Below are positions 2,174 through 8,367 of a stretch of 20,622 nt of DNA, piece after piece (positions within the stretch are counted from its first letter, which is position 1; every line of letters begins with the position of its first letter). Location: the IMG/VR virus record IMGVR_UViG_3300046450_001341, positions 1-20,622 of that record, one strand, 5' to 3'. The notes under the pieces were generated by a model, which ran no database searches, was not told the origin of the DNA, and saw only the letters and a program-made list of their open reading frames with translations. The position numbers were made by a program, and so were the translations under genes. The stretch is from a virus.

Positions 2174-3082
2174 ATGTCATTTCAAGACTTAAAAAACAAA
2201 GCCGGTGCGATAGATAGCAATTTACAAGCTGCGGCTTCAAGCACCTCAGAAAAGAAATCATATGGCGATGATCGTCAATGGAAACCCACAGTAGATAAAG
2301 CAGGTAACGGTTATGCCGTTATTAGGTTCTTACCTACAGTCGAAGGTGATGACTTACCTTGGGCTAAATACTGGGACCACTTCTTCCAAGGACCAACTGG
2401 ACAATGGTATGTTGAGAAATCACTGACTACTATTCAGAAAGATGACCCTGTGTCGGAGATGAATTCTAAACTTTGGAATACAGGTATAGAAGCAGATAAA
2501 GATACTGCACGGAAACGTAAGCGTCGCTTACATTATGTGTCAAATATTTGTGTTGTTTCAGATCCTGAAAATCCTGAAAATAACGGCAAGGTATTCTTAT
2601 ATACTTATGGTGCTAAAATCTTTGAAAAGGTTATGAATAGCATGCAACCTCAGTATGAAGATGAAACTGCTGTTAATCCATTTGATATGTGGAAAGGTGC
2701 TAACTTTAAAATGAAGATTGCTCAAGTTGCGGGATTCCGTAATTATGATCGTTCTGAATTTGGTAGTCCTGAAGCTTTGAATGCAGATGATTCTGTATTG
2801 GAAGAAATATACAACAAACAGTATTCTGTTAAAGAATTTACTGATCCTTCAACATTTAAATCTTATAGTGAGCTTAACCTTAAGTTAACTAGAGTTTTAG
2901 GTGAAGATGCTGGAACTTCTCAAGAGAAATCAGCAATGGCAGAATCAGTAGATGATTCACCGTTTAATGATGAACCTTCTATTTCGGACCCAGTTGCAGT
3001 AGCAGCTGATCCAATAGCAAGAGCTGATTCAGATAATGATGATACTATGAGTTATTTCGCTAAGTTAGCGGCAGAAGCTTAA
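2174..3082 (+). CDS. gp32: gp32 single-stranded DNA binding protein
   Basis: At 302 residues it is essentially the length of T4 gp32 (301). The N-terminal cooperativity region is MSFQDLKNKAG. The OB core runs about residues 30-240, including YAVIRFLP (47-54), WYVEKSL (78-84), ARKRKRRLHYVSNICVVSDP (112-131), NPFDMWKGANFKMKI (168-182) and FKSYSELNLKL (228-238). The tail (256-302) is acidic, as used in T4 for contacts with replication proteins. Of the T4 zinc ligands (His64, Cys77, Cys87, Cys90) only a histidine (H69) is kept; the cysteine positions hold other residues, so the zinc knob is absent, as I recall for cyanophage gp32. A strong ribosome binding site (AAGGAG, 2161-2166) sits seven bases before ATG. 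It is the last gene of the left cluster, before a terminator. Confidence 0.95.
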   Translation: MSFQDLKNKAGAIDSNLQAAASSTSEKKSYGDDRQWKPTVDKAGNGYAVIRFLPTVEGDDLPWAKYWDHFFQGPTGQWYVEKSLTTIQKDDPVSEMNSKLWNTGIEADKDTARKRKRRLHYVSNICVVSDPENPENNGKVFLYTYGAKIFEKVMNSMQPQYEDETAVNPFDMWKGANFKMKIAQVAGFRNYDRSEFGSPEALNADDSVLEEIYNKQYSVKEFTDPSTFKSYSELNLKLTRVLGEDAGTSQEKSAMAESVDDSPFNDEPSISDPVAVAADPIARADSDNDDTMSYFAKLAAEA

Positions 3083-3088
3083 TCTATG

Positions 3089-3114
3089 AACCCGTCGAAA
3101 GGCGGGTTTTTTTT
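3089..3114 (+). terminator. intrinsic terminator after gp32
   Basis: Stem AACCCGTC / GGCGGGTT (one T-G pair) closed by a GAAA tetraloop (3097-3100), followed by a run of eight T ending at 3114. It sits 7 bases after the gp32 stop. The 3' T-run touches the stop codon of the convergent minus-strand gene (3113-3115). The minus-strand side lacks a T-run, so it works mainly on the + strand. Confidence 0.92.
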
Positions 3115-5563
3115 AATAGTTATTATAAGATCCACCAGCATCAAACTTAATGGCCTCTGATGAATAATAGTTATTATAGGTGTTATACAAGTTAGTACCA
3201 CCAGTACCATTCATGTTTCCATTACTTCCTGTTAAATCTACTTTAGAAACTCCTAGTGCTTCTTGTAATGCTCTAATTCCACCAGCTGCATTTTGATAAT
3301 TCTCTAAACTAAGATTTTTTAAACCTGTTGTAATAGTTAGATCATTACCTGCACCATACATTGCATATTTTCCACCATTAAATGCAGCATCTATACCATG
3401 AGCCATATATACAAAATCATCAGTAAATTTGGTAAATTCAAAATTACTTGCTTTTAATTGCATCCCAGTTAATTGATTCATTACATTTACAACCTTTGAT
3501 ATACCATCAGCTGATTTACCTAATGTAAGGTCACCTATTGTAGCTAAGCTTTCCATAGGTTTAACAATATTGTCTATCATGGTTTGTAAACCAGAGGCAC
3601 TTGTGTCTTTATCAGCCTTACCACTTAACCATTCCATATTAAAAAAGTTACTAAACCCATCAAAAGTATCACCTATAGTATCAGCTGTACCAGTTCCAAA
3701 CAAAGCTGTTCCTAATGCGGCTATACCAGCTCCTAATGAAACTAAACCAAGACCAGTACTAGTCAGATTTGCTCCATTAACCTGGTTAAATCCAGCTAAT
3801 CCACCCCCCATATGATTTAACATCGTACCGAATGCAGCGCCATCAGCACCTAAGAATGCGGCTATACCAGTAACACCAGCTAGACCAGCAAAGAAACCAC
3901 CAATACCAGCTCCCATTGCTGTCATACCTGCAGCAGCTAACGGCATTGCAGCACCTAATCCAGCACCAGCTATAATAAACCCAGATAAAGCTAATTGTTG
4001 TGGTCCAGTAAATGCACCTAAACCTTCTGCAATATTTGTAGCTTGATCTTTAAATGCTTTACCATCAACGTTGGCAAGAGAACCAAGTTTAGCAGCTGCA
4101 GTCATACCAACCATGAAACCACCAATACCAGCACCCATTATTGATGCACCGGCTGCTGCCTTTCCTGCATTTGCAATAGCAACCTTTCCTTTCCCGCCTG
4201 TCATCATAGCAGCACCAGCACCAGCCATTAAACCTAAAACACCTAATGTTTTTGCATCAAGAGTTTCTAAGGCCTTTAATGCTTCAACCGTATTAAGAGC
4301 ATTATCTTTAAATGTTGTACCACTAATTTTTGTTAATGCAGCAGGAGCAGACATACCAACCATGAAACCACCGATTGATGCTCCAGCGATTGAGGCTCCT
4401 GTAGCTGCTAACGCTGTAGTTCCAATGCCAAGTTTACTTGTTGCCATTAAAGCACCACCACCTGCAAGAACACCTAAGATAGCTAAAGTTTTTACATCCA
4501 TAGTTTCCAAAGCCTTTAAAGCTTCGACTGTATTAAGAGCGTTATCTTTAAATGATGTACCTTCTATTTTAGTTATACTTGAAACAGCAACAATACCAGT
4601 CATAAAACCACCAATAGCAGCACCAGCCAACGATGCACCAGCTGCAGCACCAGTCGCCTTACCTAAGCTTTTATATCCCAGGCCTGCTCCAGCGACAGCT
4701 ATTAAACCTAAAGTAGCTAGCGTTCCAGTACTTAAAGTACCAAGTTCTTCTAATGCATCTGCTACATCAGCAGCATTATCTTTAAATGTTTTACCATCAA
4801 AACCAGTTAAACTGCCCGCAGCTACGACACCTGACATAAAGCCACCAATACCCGCACCCATTGCAGTCATACCAATAGCAGCTTTAGCACTCTTGCCAAC
4901 TCCGCCGGCCATTCCTAAGAAAGCACCACCAGCTAACATAACACCTAACATAGTTATGGATTTATTGCTCATCTTACCGAAGTGTTCCCAACCTTCAGAT
5001 ATATTCTTTGCTTGTTCAGGGAAACCTTCCCCTCTAAATGCTTTTACGCCTGACCAAACCATTAAGCCACTCATAAATGCACCAATACCTAAACCCATTA
5101 AACCTAGACCAGCAGCACCTTTTGCTGCTTTACCTAAGAAACTAGATTTTCCACCAGCATCTTTTTTATTGTCTTTATCTTCTTTATCTTTATCTTTGGA
5201 TTCTCTATCAGCTTCACTTTGAGCACTATCTAATGCTTTCCAGCGCGCTGTAAAAAGATCTCTTAATTCGTCTTGTTTACCACGAGTTGAAGGTTTATTT
5301 TCTTCTTCAGCCTGACCTAACTTACCCTTTTCAAGGAATGTCTTTGCTTGACCTGCTAAGAACCTACGTTGGAAGTCTTGACCAGCACTCATGATATTAC
5401 TTTGTTGATCTACTTGTACTTCATCAACTGCAGCCATTCTTTCAGCACGATCGCGATCTTCTTTATCGCGTATTAAATCTTTTCGACTGACAGCATTAAG
5501 TTTCCTTAATTCAGCAACAATTAATCCTAATTGCGGGTCAGATTGTTTATTTTTTTCAGCCAT
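3113..5563 (-). CDS. probable tail tape measure protein, Ala/Gly-rich with ~79-residue repeats
   Basis: An 816-residue protein in three parts. Residues 1-115 are charged and helical. Residues 116-138 are a K/D/E-rich hydrophilic linker. Residues 150-625 contain six hydrophobic, Ala/Gly-rich units, each opening with a G-I-G-x-F-like motif (F163, F242, F320, F400, F483, F557) and carrying a G-x-x-F-K-D/E helix. Residues 625-816 look globular and end in an Asn/Tyr-rich tail. Long helical proteins with hydrophobic segments immediately downstream of a tail chaperone gene are tape measures in tailed phages; here the gene follows gp26 and gp51 with an 8-base overlap. T4 gp29, the known tape measure, has 590 residues; I see no convincing residue-level match to it. 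If it is the tape measure, it would set tail length inside the tube and reach the cell membrane at infection. Other virion or inner-tail roles remain possible. Confidence 0.6.
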   Translation of the reverse strand: MAEKNKQSDPQLGLIVAELRKLNAVSRKDLIRDKEDRDRAERMAAVDEVQVDQQSNIMSAGQDFQRRFLAGQAKTFLEKGKLGQAEEENKPSTRGKQDELRDLFTARWKALDSAQSEADRESKDKDKEDKDNKKDAGGKSSFLGKAAKGAAGLGLMGLGIGAFMSGLMVWSGVKAFRGEGFPEQAKNISEGWEHFGKMSNKSITMLGVMLAGGAFLGMAGGVGKSAKAAIGMTAMGAGIGGFMSGVVAAGSLTGFDGKTFKDNAADVADALEELGTLSTGTLATLGLIAVAGAGLGYKSLGKATGAAAGASLAGAAIGGFMTGIVAVSSITKIEGTSFKDNALNTVEALKALETMDVKTLAILGVLAGGGALMATSKLGIGTTALAATGASIAGASIGGFMVGMSAPAALTKISGTTFKDNALNTVEALKALETLDAKTLGVLGLMAGAGAAMMTGGKGKVAIANAGKAAAGASIMGAGIGGFMVGMTAAAKLGSLANVDGKAFKDQATNIAEGLGAFTGPQQLALSGFIIAGAGLGAAMPLAAAGMTAMGAGIGGFFAGLAGVTGIAAFLGADGAAFGTMLNHMGGGLAGFNQVNGANLTSTGLGLVSLGAGIAALGTALFGTGTADTIGDTFDGFSNFFNMEWLSGKADKDTSASGLQTMIDNIVKPMESLATIGDLTLGKSADGISKVVNVMNQLTGMQLKASNFEFTKFTDDFVYMAHGIDAAFNGGKYAMYGAGNDLTITTGLKNLSLENYQNAAGGIRALQEALGVSKVDLTGSNGNMNGTGGTNLYNTYNNYYSSEAIKFDAGGSYNNY
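3692..5101 (-). repeat. six tandem ~79-residue coding repeats in the tape-measure-like gene
   Basis: Anchor phenylalanines at residues 163, 242, 320, 400, 483 and 557 give spacings of 79, 78, 80, 83 and 74 residues. Units 3 and 4 are nearly identical over residues 334-359 and 414-439 (KDNALNTVEALKALET core). At DNA level these lie at 4487-4564 and 4247-4324, exactly 240 bases apart. The repeats are diverged coding repeats, not DNA satellites. Confidence 0.85.
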
Positions 5564-5738
5564 GTTTACTCTGCTCTCTATTACGTTCTTCTATCCATTG
5601 TGTTAGAAGGCTAACATATATATCCCTCTCCCACGGTAACATATTATTCAAATCTTCCAATTGAAAATTATGTTGATGCATTAAAGCAAAATTTGTCTTA
5701 TAATGCGTTACTAATGAATCGTGTGAAAGGGCTATATA
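5556..5738 (-). CDS. gp51: gp51-like frame, probably expressed as a -1 frameshift extension of gp26
   Basis: A small frame in the -1 phase relative to gp26. From the slip site it encodes 60 residues starting YIALSHDSLVTHYKTNFALM; its only in-frame ATG (5679-5681) would give just 41 residues (MHQHNFQLEDLNNMLPWERD onward, ending at TGA 5556-5558). The segment around MLPWERDIYVSLLTQW resembles the short gp51 (hub assembly catalyst) of marine T4-like phages and the Pro-Trp-Glu...Tyr helix style of tail chaperone extensions. The SHDSL...NFAL part upstream of the ATG also looks coding, yet no ATG, GTG or TTG precedes it after the upstream in-frame TGA. Fusion with gp26 would give 294 residues. The stop overlaps the start of the tape-measure-like gene by 8 bases. 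Alternatives are a short independent product from the ATG or initiation at the near-cognate ATA (5733-5735). Confidence 0.7.
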   Translation of the reverse strand, partial: YIALSHDSLVTHYKTNFALMHQHNFQLEDLNNMLPWERDIYVSLLTQWIEERNREQSKHG

Positions 5739-6439
5739 AAAAAATCAGCTAGTCCTTTTAACTCCCTTGTATTTTCGTGTCCACATTTTTTGCATGTGAA
5801 TTCTATATCATAACCAACATACGGTGTTTTAACAAGCATTGCCATTATTTCAGAAAATTGCTCAGAACTCATATTTTCAGTAAACTCAACCACTTCTTCA
5901 AATGGTACATCACTTGTTGAATGTATATCTTCACCATGATAAATTGTTCCAATTGATTTAGCAACCATATTGATAAGTTTTTCTGTACCAGTATCGCCTT
6001 CTACGCCTCTATCGCCCATAGTAGGCCAGCGTAATTCAATTGCCATATTATCACTAAGTTTTATTTGAAGATCTTTATTATCAAAATCATTATTCTTAAT
6101 TTCTAATTTATCTAAATTAACTTTAACGTTATTTGATTCTTCGCATTCATCAGCAGAACAAGTAATACCTAACTCTATTCCTTCACCTACACTGCTTGCA
6201 CGTAATGTTAAAAATATAAATTCAATATCAAATCCTGTTAACTTATCTATTTTAACACTATCATCTAAACATGATGTAATTATTGCAGTTACAGCTTGTT
6301 CAATTTGCATATCATCTTGAGATTCTAAAGCTATTAGCAATAGTTTCTCTTCTCTGACCACGTATGGTCTGTATTTAATACTTTCGCCTGTTGAGGGCAC
6401 AATCATATCATACTTTGGGGTTGCTAGTTTTGGCAACAT
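5732..6439 (-). CDS. gp26: gp26-like baseplate hub / tail assembly protein
   Basis: A 235-residue protein similar in size to T4 gp26 (208). It resembles the T4 baseplate protein family (Pfam T4_baseplate) as found in marine T4-like phages: N-terminal LPKLATPKYDMIVPSTG, then YRPYVVREEKLLLIALES (23-40) and a helical region with IELGITCSADEC (88-99). Two cysteine pairs (C94/C99 and C216/C219 in FTCKKCGHEN) could form a split zinc ribbon; this is visible in sequence but unproven. T4 gp26 is needed for hub assembly. Here the end of the gene (ADFFI) contains a U7 slip site that would link it to gp51, making it a candidate tail assembly chaperone for the adjacent tape-measure-like protein. The start is supported by GGAGAAG (6447-6453) seven bases upstream, and it follows gp54 by 32 bases. 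Confidence 0.85.
   Translation of the reverse strand: MLPKLATPKYDMIVPSTGESIKYRPYVVREEKLLLIALESQDDMQIEQAVTAIITSCLDDSVKIDKLTGFDIEFIFLTLRASSVGEGIELGITCSADECEESNNVKVNLDKLEIKNNDFDNKDLQIKLSDNMAIELRWPTMGDRGVEGDTGTEKLINMVAKSIGTIYHGEDIHSTSDVPFEEVVEFTENMSSEQFSEIMAMLVKTPYVGYDIEFTCKKCGHENTRELKGLADFFI
5738..5744 (-). promoter_or_regulatory. candidate -1 ribosomal frameshift site U UUU UUU at the gp26/gp51 junction
   Basis: In gp26 phase the message reads GAU UUU UUU AUA UAG. The seven U form a perfect slippery heptamer two codons before the gp26 stop. A -1 slip continues as UAU AUA GCC into the gp51 frame with no stop until 5556. A weak downstream stem (GCAUUA at 5706-5701 with UAAUGC at 5683-5678) starts about 31 bases past the heptamer, which is far for a stimulator. 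Expression is untested. Confidence 0.6.
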
Positions 6440-6471: not shown

Positions 6472-7263
6472 TTAAAAACCACCAGCTACTGGTTGTTTAT
6501 TCCAAGGGCCACCACCCTTAGTATTCCAAGGTCCTTTTACTGGTTCACTTGTTTCTCCAATTAAAGTCTCTTTTTTATTTGTGTTTAATTTTTTCATTAC
6601 TTTATCATCTGTAAATTTAATATTAAGATTCATAAAGCCATTGAAATTGTTTAGTGCTCTCCAATTGTCATATTCCCAAGTTACAGTTACTTCTAATAGT
6701 CCATCAGAGCCATTACCTAATTCAATTGCCGACATTTGTATAGGATATGCATTCTCTAACTTAACTGCATAACCTGGAATTATATCATTAGATTGAGATA
6801 ATTGCTGTATTGTTACATCACTACAGTAGTCTCTTTTGTACATTGCTTTATAATGATCACCTGTACTATCAATAATCATTTCTTGCCACATATCAAAATA
6901 CTTTTTAATGTAATAGTCATTCGTTAATAAGAATGACATACTTACTTCATCAGTCATCATTGAATATGGCTTCTTTGACATATTATGATCATGTGTAGCT
7001 TCTGTTGTAGTTATACGTTTACCTGGAATTGAACATGTTTGACATAACAAAAACATATCTATCGGGTTACGAATAAAATCTCCTAAATGAACACCATCAC
7101 CAGATATCATATTATTTAATAATGTTGCTGGGTCAAATCTCATTAAAGAATTCATAGATTTTGAAGGATGAGGAATATATACACAGAATCTATTTCCACG
7201 CGCTATACCACCATGAGTGTTGACTGCAGATTTCATTGAGTCTATGTTTACTGGTTTTCCCAT
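6472..7263 (-). CDS. gp54: gp54-like baseplate tail tube initiator
   Basis: A 263-residue protein with the tail-tube fold pattern of the T4 gp19/gp54 group. NRFCVYIPHP lies near residues 24-33, the CSIPGKRITTTEA strand near 76-88, MTDEVSMSFLLTNDYYIKKYF near 102-122 and LLEVTVTWEYDNWRAL near 190-205. The C-terminus is Gly/Pro/Lys-rich (PWNTKGGGPWNKQP). In T4, gp54 sits on gp48 and starts tube polymerisation. Its neighbours are tail assembly genes and gp48 is encoded nearby, so gp54 is the most likely identity; the related tube protein gp19 is the main alternative. The ATG overlaps the upstream stop by one base (TAATG), and AAGGAA lies a few bases upstream, suggesting coupled translation. Confidence 0.68.
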   Translation of the reverse strand: MGKPVNIDSMKSAVNTHGGIARGNRFCVYIPHPSKSMNSLMRFDPATLLNNMISGDGVHLGDFIRNPIDMFLLCQTCSIPGKRITTTEATHDHNMSKKPYSMMTDEVSMSFLLTNDYYIKKYFDMWQEMIIDSTGDHYKAMYKRDYCSDVTIQQLSQSNDIIPGYAVKLENAYPIQMSAIELGNGSDGLLEVTVTWEYDNWRALNNFNGFMNLNIKFTDDKVMKKLNTNKKETLIGETSEPVKGPWNTKGGGPWNKQPVAGGF

Positions 7264-7866: not shown

Positions 7867-7874
7867 TATTTATA
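7867..7874 (-). promoter_or_regulatory. T4-type late promoter for the gp2-like gene
   Basis: An exact TATAAATA octamer on the minus strand overlaps the gp4 stop codon. The predicted start would lie near 7861-7862, leaving a leader of about 20 bases containing AAGGAAA before the ATG at 7841. Position, spacing and match all agree with a late promoter. Confidence 0.7.
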
Positions 7875-8367
7875 TCCGTTTCTTAAGTGTTTTCCATATT
7901 CTTTTACCGGTCTTTGTTTTACTTACTTTAAATTTCATAGACATTGTTTTAATTCCCATAGCTTCTAATTCATTCTCAGTCCATATCTGAAACTCATAAC
8001 CTCTATCATCTGCATACTTCTTTGCATACTTCCACTTAGATGTATTCTTCATATAAGTTAATGCTTCATTAAGCTTCTTACGTTTAGGTGGTTGTGTTTG
8101 CGCATGTGGTTTAATTTCAACCAAGATGGTACGACCTGTATTCGTTCGTATAGTAAGATCAACAAAGTATCTATGTGGCTTACGATCAGTTGAACATATA
8201 TATGGTATGACAGTTTCTTCAGACTGCCACCACTTAACCCATGTTGCTTTATCCATATATCTAAACGTATTGCGTTCCCATAATGACCTATAATGTATCA
8301 TATCAATATTACCATTATATTTTTCAGGGTGTTTTGGTCGCCAAGAGCCAGAATATGTCTTTTTCAT
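7870..8367 (-). CDS. gp4: gp4-like head completion protein with PD-(D/E)XK nuclease fold
   Basis: A 165-residue protein close to T4 gp4 (150 residues, also called gp50/65). It shares the start pattern YSGSWRPKHPEKYNG, the YRSLWERNTFRYMD helix (26-39), the ETVIPYICS strand (51-59), RYFVDLTIR (66-74) and VEIKPHAQTQPP (83-94). E31, D70, E84 and K86 reproduce the TnsA-like PD-(D/E)XK catalytic set, so an endonuclease-type active site appears intact. In T4, gp4 completes filled heads before tail joining. The start is fixed by alignment to the conserved N-terminus. No Shine-Dalgarno is visible and the late promoter octamer lies only five bases upstream of the ATG. It is the first gene of the minus-strand late operon. 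Confidence 0.88.
   Translation of the reverse strand: MKKTYSGSWRPKHPEKYNGNIDMIHYRSLWERNTFRYMDKATWVKWWQSEETVIPYICSTDRKPHRYFVDLTIRTNTGRTILVEIKPHAQTQPPKRKKLNEALTYMKNTSKWKYAKKYADDRGYEFQIWTENELEAMGIKTMSMKFKVSKTKTGKRIWKTLKKRI

Follow-up and report, generated by a model that had tools for sequence, protein, structure and literature searches.

A probable G/GT-type tail assembly chaperone made by −1 frameshifting at the gp26/gp51 junction of marine T4-like phages

A short and a long protein form encoded directly before the tape measure gene are the hallmark of tail assembly chaperones (TACs). In phage lambda, gpG and gpGT are the short and long forms made from one gene by a −1 slip just before the tape measure gene, while in the contractile-tail phage P2, gpE and E' arise by a −1 slip on a T-rich heptamer, likewise before the tape measure gene. 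Here we describe a locus that comprises gp26 and the frame known as gp51, on the minus strand of IMG/VR virus record IMGVR_UViG_3300046450_001341; all coordinates refer to the 20,622-nucleotide (nt) stretch of that record which was analysed (the window). We give a probability of roughly 0.9 to the reading that gp26 and 'gp51' are one gene with two products, a G/GT-type TAC made by −1 frameshifting.

The window locus resembles lambda gpG/gpGT in its short and long forms, its −1 slip and the tape measure gene that follows, but has no detectable sequence relation to it, differs in slip site and protein size, and has an extension of 60 amino acids (aa). The likeness to P2 gpE/E' covers the slip, the T-rich heptamer and the position, in a different protein family. 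In the Vandenendeviridae and Andersonviridae, other phage families with a shorter T run, a conserved −1 frameshift has been proposed at GTTTTT, at the end of TAC-N (PMC12846349). Statements in the same article cite Vladimirov, Gautam and Davidson (Virology 2022) as identifying the chaperone genes of T4-like phages, and describe poly-T slip signals as known in the TAC-N genes of these phages. On the strength of these citing statements we treat the core idea as already published for T4-like phages, as it probably is, with the window locus as a further member; an earlier interpretation of this DNA from its letters alone (the sequence-only reading), which knew of no description of gp26/gp51 as a chaperone pair, is overtaken by the 2022 paper as cited there. 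By its title, that paper puts the weight on a mechanism different from frameshifting, in keeping with T4 itself and not with the window locus. The T4-type gp26 and gp51 (T2, Lazarus, AS-gz, Pseudotevenvirus) are homologous to the short form and the whole fusion, respectively, but are two separate genes, divergent or tandem, with no slip. What is possibly new here is the marine clade, the candidate RNA stimulators and an invariant CCTTTC element.

The gp26 frame and its −1 extension

The locus consists of two overlapping frames on the same strand, directly upstream of a putative tape measure open reading frame (ORF). Its features are:

5732..6439, minus strand: gp26 reading frame, short form (TAC-N-like), 235 aa; PF12322 E 1.8e-57, phrog_150 E 1.8e-61; AlphaFold2 (AF2) predicted local distance difference test score (pLDDT) 86.8
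5738..5744, minus strand: slippery heptamer T TTT TTT, from sequence; T TTT TTN kept in 190/190 relatives
5556..5738, minus strand: −1 frame extension of 60 codons plus TGA, the C-terminal part of the putative long form ('gp51'); phrog_634 E 7.6e-26, phrog_150 positions 236-277; ratio of nonsynonymous to synonymous substitution (dN/dS) 0.285 before the ATG
5679..5681, minus strand: sole ATG within the extension, residue 20; not conserved as a start, absent in 10/40 clade representatives

On the minus strand gp26 ends GAT TTT TTT ATA TAG, with the three bases ATA between the heptamer and the TAG stop at 5734-5732. The −1 frame, closed upstream by a TGA that overlaps the GAT immediately 5' of the T run, stays open from 5738 until the TGA at 5558-5556, a stretch coding for 60 residues (YIALSHDSL...KHG), and the predicted fusion has 294 aa. 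A scan of the extension for ATG, GTG and TTG found a single ATG (5681-5679), from which only a 41-residue remnant would be made. Every number that the sequence-only reading had given for the gp26 end, the −1 frame and the two forms was confirmed. Against PF12322 gp26 scores 195 bits (curated cut-off 24.5), and its match to phrog_150 stops at position 232 of 282, the extension matching the missing end.

In the mechanism that we propose, most ribosomes would read gp26 to the TAG and produce the 235-aa short form, while some would slip back one base on U UUU UUU (5744-5738), as tRNA-Phe re-pairs in the P and A sites, and translate a further 60 codons to yield the long form. The two forms would then be a chaperone pair (TAC-N / TAC-NC), handling the tape measure protein and helping to recruit tail-tube subunits.

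An IMG/VR scan with gp26 gave 80 relatives at 48-100% identity, and later scans added 93 loci; the frameshift-type set of 190 comprises 174 IMG/VR contigs (window included) and 16 named phages (S-RSM4, P-HM1, S-N03, HTVC008M, Melnitz, DLP6, Milchi, Ps15, KVP40, PX29, PhiW-14, Cr30, phiM9, Y68, OLIVR6 and XG4). Codon and register statistics were calculated on a dereplicated set of 122 loci. An in-frame T TTT TTN at the gp26 end, followed by the extension in −1, was found in every one of the 190 loci, at a heptamer-to-stop spacing of 0-6 nt (nearly always 3) and with C, T, G or A as the last base of the heptamer; all 80 first-scan relatives keep TTTTTTT and the −1 phase. This alignment had been proposed beforehand as a check on the frameshift, and it bears out both slip site and phase. 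As judged from these sequences, a −1 frameshift at the gp26/gp51 junction is highly probable.

The codon before the T run encodes D in 51, S in 47, N in 19, A in 4 and R in 1 of the 122 loci, always with T as its third base, and the heptamer persists despite these amino acid changes; it is likewise kept in GC-rich DLP6, Y68 and phiM9-like loci, in which TTT is otherwise almost unused. The log10 probability of the T run under each gene's own codon usage sums to −49.8 over the 122 loci, a figure that overstates the significance, since the loci are related by descent. In the AT-rich window clade TTT makes up 94% of Phe codons and the T run is fairly likely from codon usage alone, so that the strength of the conservation argument comes from the wider set. 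The run begins at codon position 3 in 122/122 loci; other T6 runs within the same genes lie in a different register in 16 of 21 cases.

Within the window clade, pooled dN/dS over extension residues 5-19 is 0.285 in the −1 frame vs 1.19-1.21 in the other two, and over residues 20-40 it is 0.212 in the −1 frame; L4, H6 and N16 are invariant (57 sequences). No possible start precedes residue 9 in this clade, and in most loci none precedes residue 18. By these substitution ratios the extension is under purifying selection and coding upstream of the ATG, in agreement with the earlier remark that its first 19 residues look coding yet lack a start codon.

Ackermannviridae were considered as further members of the heptamer set and rejected, as they have no T6 run. 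In these phages and in Vibrio phage K351, a gp26-like gene precedes a −1 frame that carries a related MPW motif, and the junctions hold CTTTTC or ATTTTC only, with TAATG in K351; they may use either a different slip site or coupling.

The two genes of T4-type phages

T4-type gp51 aligns with the fused forms across the shift point (hhalign 99.6%, E 5.3e-24, columns 7-253 vs 13-287), T4-type gp26 aligns with the short part of the fusion, and the two match each other in profile comparison (98.7%, E 3e-16). On phrog_150, gp51 of T2 covers positions 13-280 and that of Acinetobacter phage Lazarus 13-281 of 282, while their gp26 proteins stop at 235. Since the whole fusion is matched by gp51 and its short part by gp26, the short and the long form are encoded in T4 relatives by two distinct, paralogous genes. 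Both are present in 43/43 T4-type IMG/VR loci, divergent in 38 and in same-strand tandem in 5, the latter matching the Pseudotevenvirus copy best. In a tree whose weight is limited by midpoint rooting and long branches, T4-type gp26 and gp51 group together, split from the frameshift-type phages with ultrafast bootstrap (UFBoot) 98. For structural comparison, the long form was taken from a T4 relative's natural in-frame long form; this gp51 model matched gp26 proteins in a viral structure library (e.g. Aeromonas phage 25 gp26, E 2.6e-9), consistent with paralogy.

The simplest history would be that an ancestral frameshift gene persisted in marine phages and KVP40, whereas in the T4 branch duplication took its place, with gp26 standing for the short form and gp51 for the long form. 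The sequence-only reading had held that the frameshift, if real, would provide a T4-type phage with the standard chaperone cassette. Position and paralogy with T4 gp26/gp51 support such a cassette at the window locus; the T4-type phages themselves, however, have two separate paralogous genes and no frameshift.

Three observations concern related genes. The gp28 family phrog_1140 weakly matches T2 gp26 (2324-2950 in the stretch compared; E 9e-4), which makes gp28 a possible third paralog in the chaperone family. Campylobacter phage vB_CjeM_WX1 has a single in-frame long form (2356-3096), with no separate short gene in the stretch read. The GenBank record of Citrobacter phage Moon (11607-13245 in the stretch compared) fuses T4 gp27 with gp28 under the name 'GT-like fusion, tape measure chaperone', which shows an earlier search for the T4 chaperones; by the present data the pair would be gp26/gp51, not gp27/gp28 as in Moon.

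Candidate stimulators around the heptamer

Three sequences flank the heptamer on the minus strand, their roles as stimulators being putative:

5753..5759, minus strand: AAAAGGA, a Shine-Dalgarno (SD)-like stretch upstream of the heptamer; anti-SD energy
5768-5762, minus strand: AAGGGAG, a second SD-like stretch; sequence
5725..5732, minus strand: GCCCTTTC, an element conserved at the nucleotide level 3' of the heptamer, which shares the final base of the gp26 stop; codon conservation

Upstream, anti-SD pairing energy beats a synonymous-codon null in 96/122 loci (mean −6.0 vs −4.6), with a Wilcoxon p of 1.5e-13 over loci that are not independent. Downstream, the folding z-score has a dip 3-6 nt past the heptamer (means −1.37 and −1.55, 39% below −2), with values close to zero at other positions. 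The hairpins vary by clade: relatives of S-RSM4 have a 9-bp stem seven nt after the heptamer, another clade has an 11-bp stem, and further hairpins occur in P-HM1, S-N03 and DLP6.

In the window clade, downstream codon 3 ends in C and codon 4 reads CTT or CTC, each in 40/40 loci (CCTTTC for the most part); GCC accounts for 29/29 Ala codons at this element vs a background of 4% of Ala codons in these genes. Together, this codon bias and the fixed bases in codons 3 and 4 indicate a constraint beyond protein. The CCTTTC element sits where cyanophages have the 5' arm of their hairpin, and pairing with downstream sequence was found in 3/40 loci only. Slippage is probably helped by an upstream SD-like stretch together with a downstream element, which is a hairpin in many relatives and the invariant CCUUUC in the window clade. 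More speculatively, and as a proposal that we rate as rather doubtful, slippage in the window clade may be tuned by the short linear CCUUUC instead of a hairpin, the stimulators being interchangeable and the T4 branch having later duplicated the gene.

Chaperone role and alternative readings

Two neighbours of the locus bear on the function of its products:

3113..5563, minus strand: 816-aa ORF (ATG at 5563) overlapping the end of the extension; putative tape measure protein, from its position and its HTVC008M counterpart
6472..7263, minus strand: tail-tube-like protein, the upstream neighbour; phrog_45 E 2.1e-32, PF23849 E 1.1e-6

The HTVC008M gene at the place corresponding to the 816-aa ORF matches tape measure PHROGs; the ORF itself has imperfect Gly/Ala-rich repeats, and no similarity to the HTVC008M or Melnitz tape measure candidates was found. 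The AF2 model of gp26 is confident, searches of the PDB with the gp26 sequence, as single protein and as profile, returned nothing relevant, and a Foldseek search of the PDB with the T4-type gp51 model gave no meaningful match. A chaperone role for the gp26/extension pair is very likely in our estimate.

Several points weigh against a chaperone gene read by frameshifting. The 816-aa ORF has no match in Pfam or PHROG and its identity is inferred from its place; the earlier statement that the pair lies directly before the tape measure gene thus holds by position. The most probable PDB match of the gp26 model is the HK97 tail assembly chaperone (2ob9_B; probability 0.77, root-mean-square deviation 2.8, 62 columns), which at E 0.86 is a hint only, and gp26 matched none of the Pfam tail assembly chaperone families, PF12322 (T4_baseplate) alone being above cut-off. 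No downstream hairpin was found in the window and its clade, and covariation gives the cyanophage hairpins modest to weak support: clade A has one two-sided pair, with a score reached by 26/500 shuffles, and clade B does better with three pairs (6/500 shuffles). An ATG overlaps or adjoins the gp26 stop in KVP40, PhiW-14, Cr30, phiM9, Y68 and Ps15, and about half of the cyanophage loci have one at extension residue 4. Finally, it is from sequence that we infer the slippage, its efficiency and both products, as well as the chaperone function and its partners.

The alternative that survives best, improbable as we judge it, leaves gp26 and gp51 as structural parts of the baseplate hub, as annotated, with the fusion serving hub assembly and not the tape measure protein. 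Database names favour it, as does older T4 genetics, cited in PMC3004832, that puts gp26 in the hub; the same article nevertheless lists both proteins as hub-assembly chaperones, gp51 being needed and yet absent from the T4 particle. The short/long architecture before the tape measure position also argues against a structural role, as does the annotation of gp26, gp51 and gp28 of Acinetobacter phage Lazarus as tape measure assembly chaperones.

Less probable again is a separate small gp51 gene, whose translation would begin by coupling or reinitiation once ribosomes have reached the gp26 stop, either at the residue-20 ATG or at a non-standard start near the junction. Public annotation lists gp51 separately, and the ATG codons of the distant phages and cyanophages named above would suit such a gene; there, the expectation that no start codon precedes the SHDSL segment gives way, whereas it stands in the window clade. 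However, loci with these ATGs still have the heptamer in its register, purifying selection acts on the residues before the window-clade ATG, the residue-20 ATG is not conserved, and T4-type gp51 is an in-frame fusion.

Slightly less credible still is RNA polymerase slippage, instead of ribosomal frameshifting, as the source of the long form. Homopolymer runs can cause such slippage and the window run has seven T; yet in 79/122 loci the run is just six T, broken by C, G or A, polymerase slippage would not require the invariant start at codon position 3, and the spacing of the hairpin and SD-like signals is ribosomal. That the two frames reflect an assembly or sequencing error in the T7 run at the joint is refuted by the 190-locus comparison: the split recurs at an identical codon across many projects and isolates, and C, G or A often follows a run of six T.

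Elsewhere in the window, a gene resembling those for NAD-dependent D-2-hydroxyacid dehydrogenases (PF02826, E 3e-47) lies at 3-809, truncated by the window end and possibly an auxiliary metabolic gene, and 7870-8367 (minus strand) has a TnsA-like endonuclease N-domain match (PF08722, E 2e-15), in the place that the head completion gene gp4 takes in T4.

A frameshifted chaperone at the gp26/gp51 junction would equip marine T4-like phages with a conserved tail chaperone gene of two products, and would correct the annotation of hundreds of genomes in which the gp51 start is misplaced or missing. It would explain T4 gp26 and gp51 as a single ancestral protein's short and long forms, today encoded by paralogous genes, and would provide a natural comparison between two isoforms made by frameshifting and two made by gene duplication, with candidate stimulators that could be tested in simple reporters.

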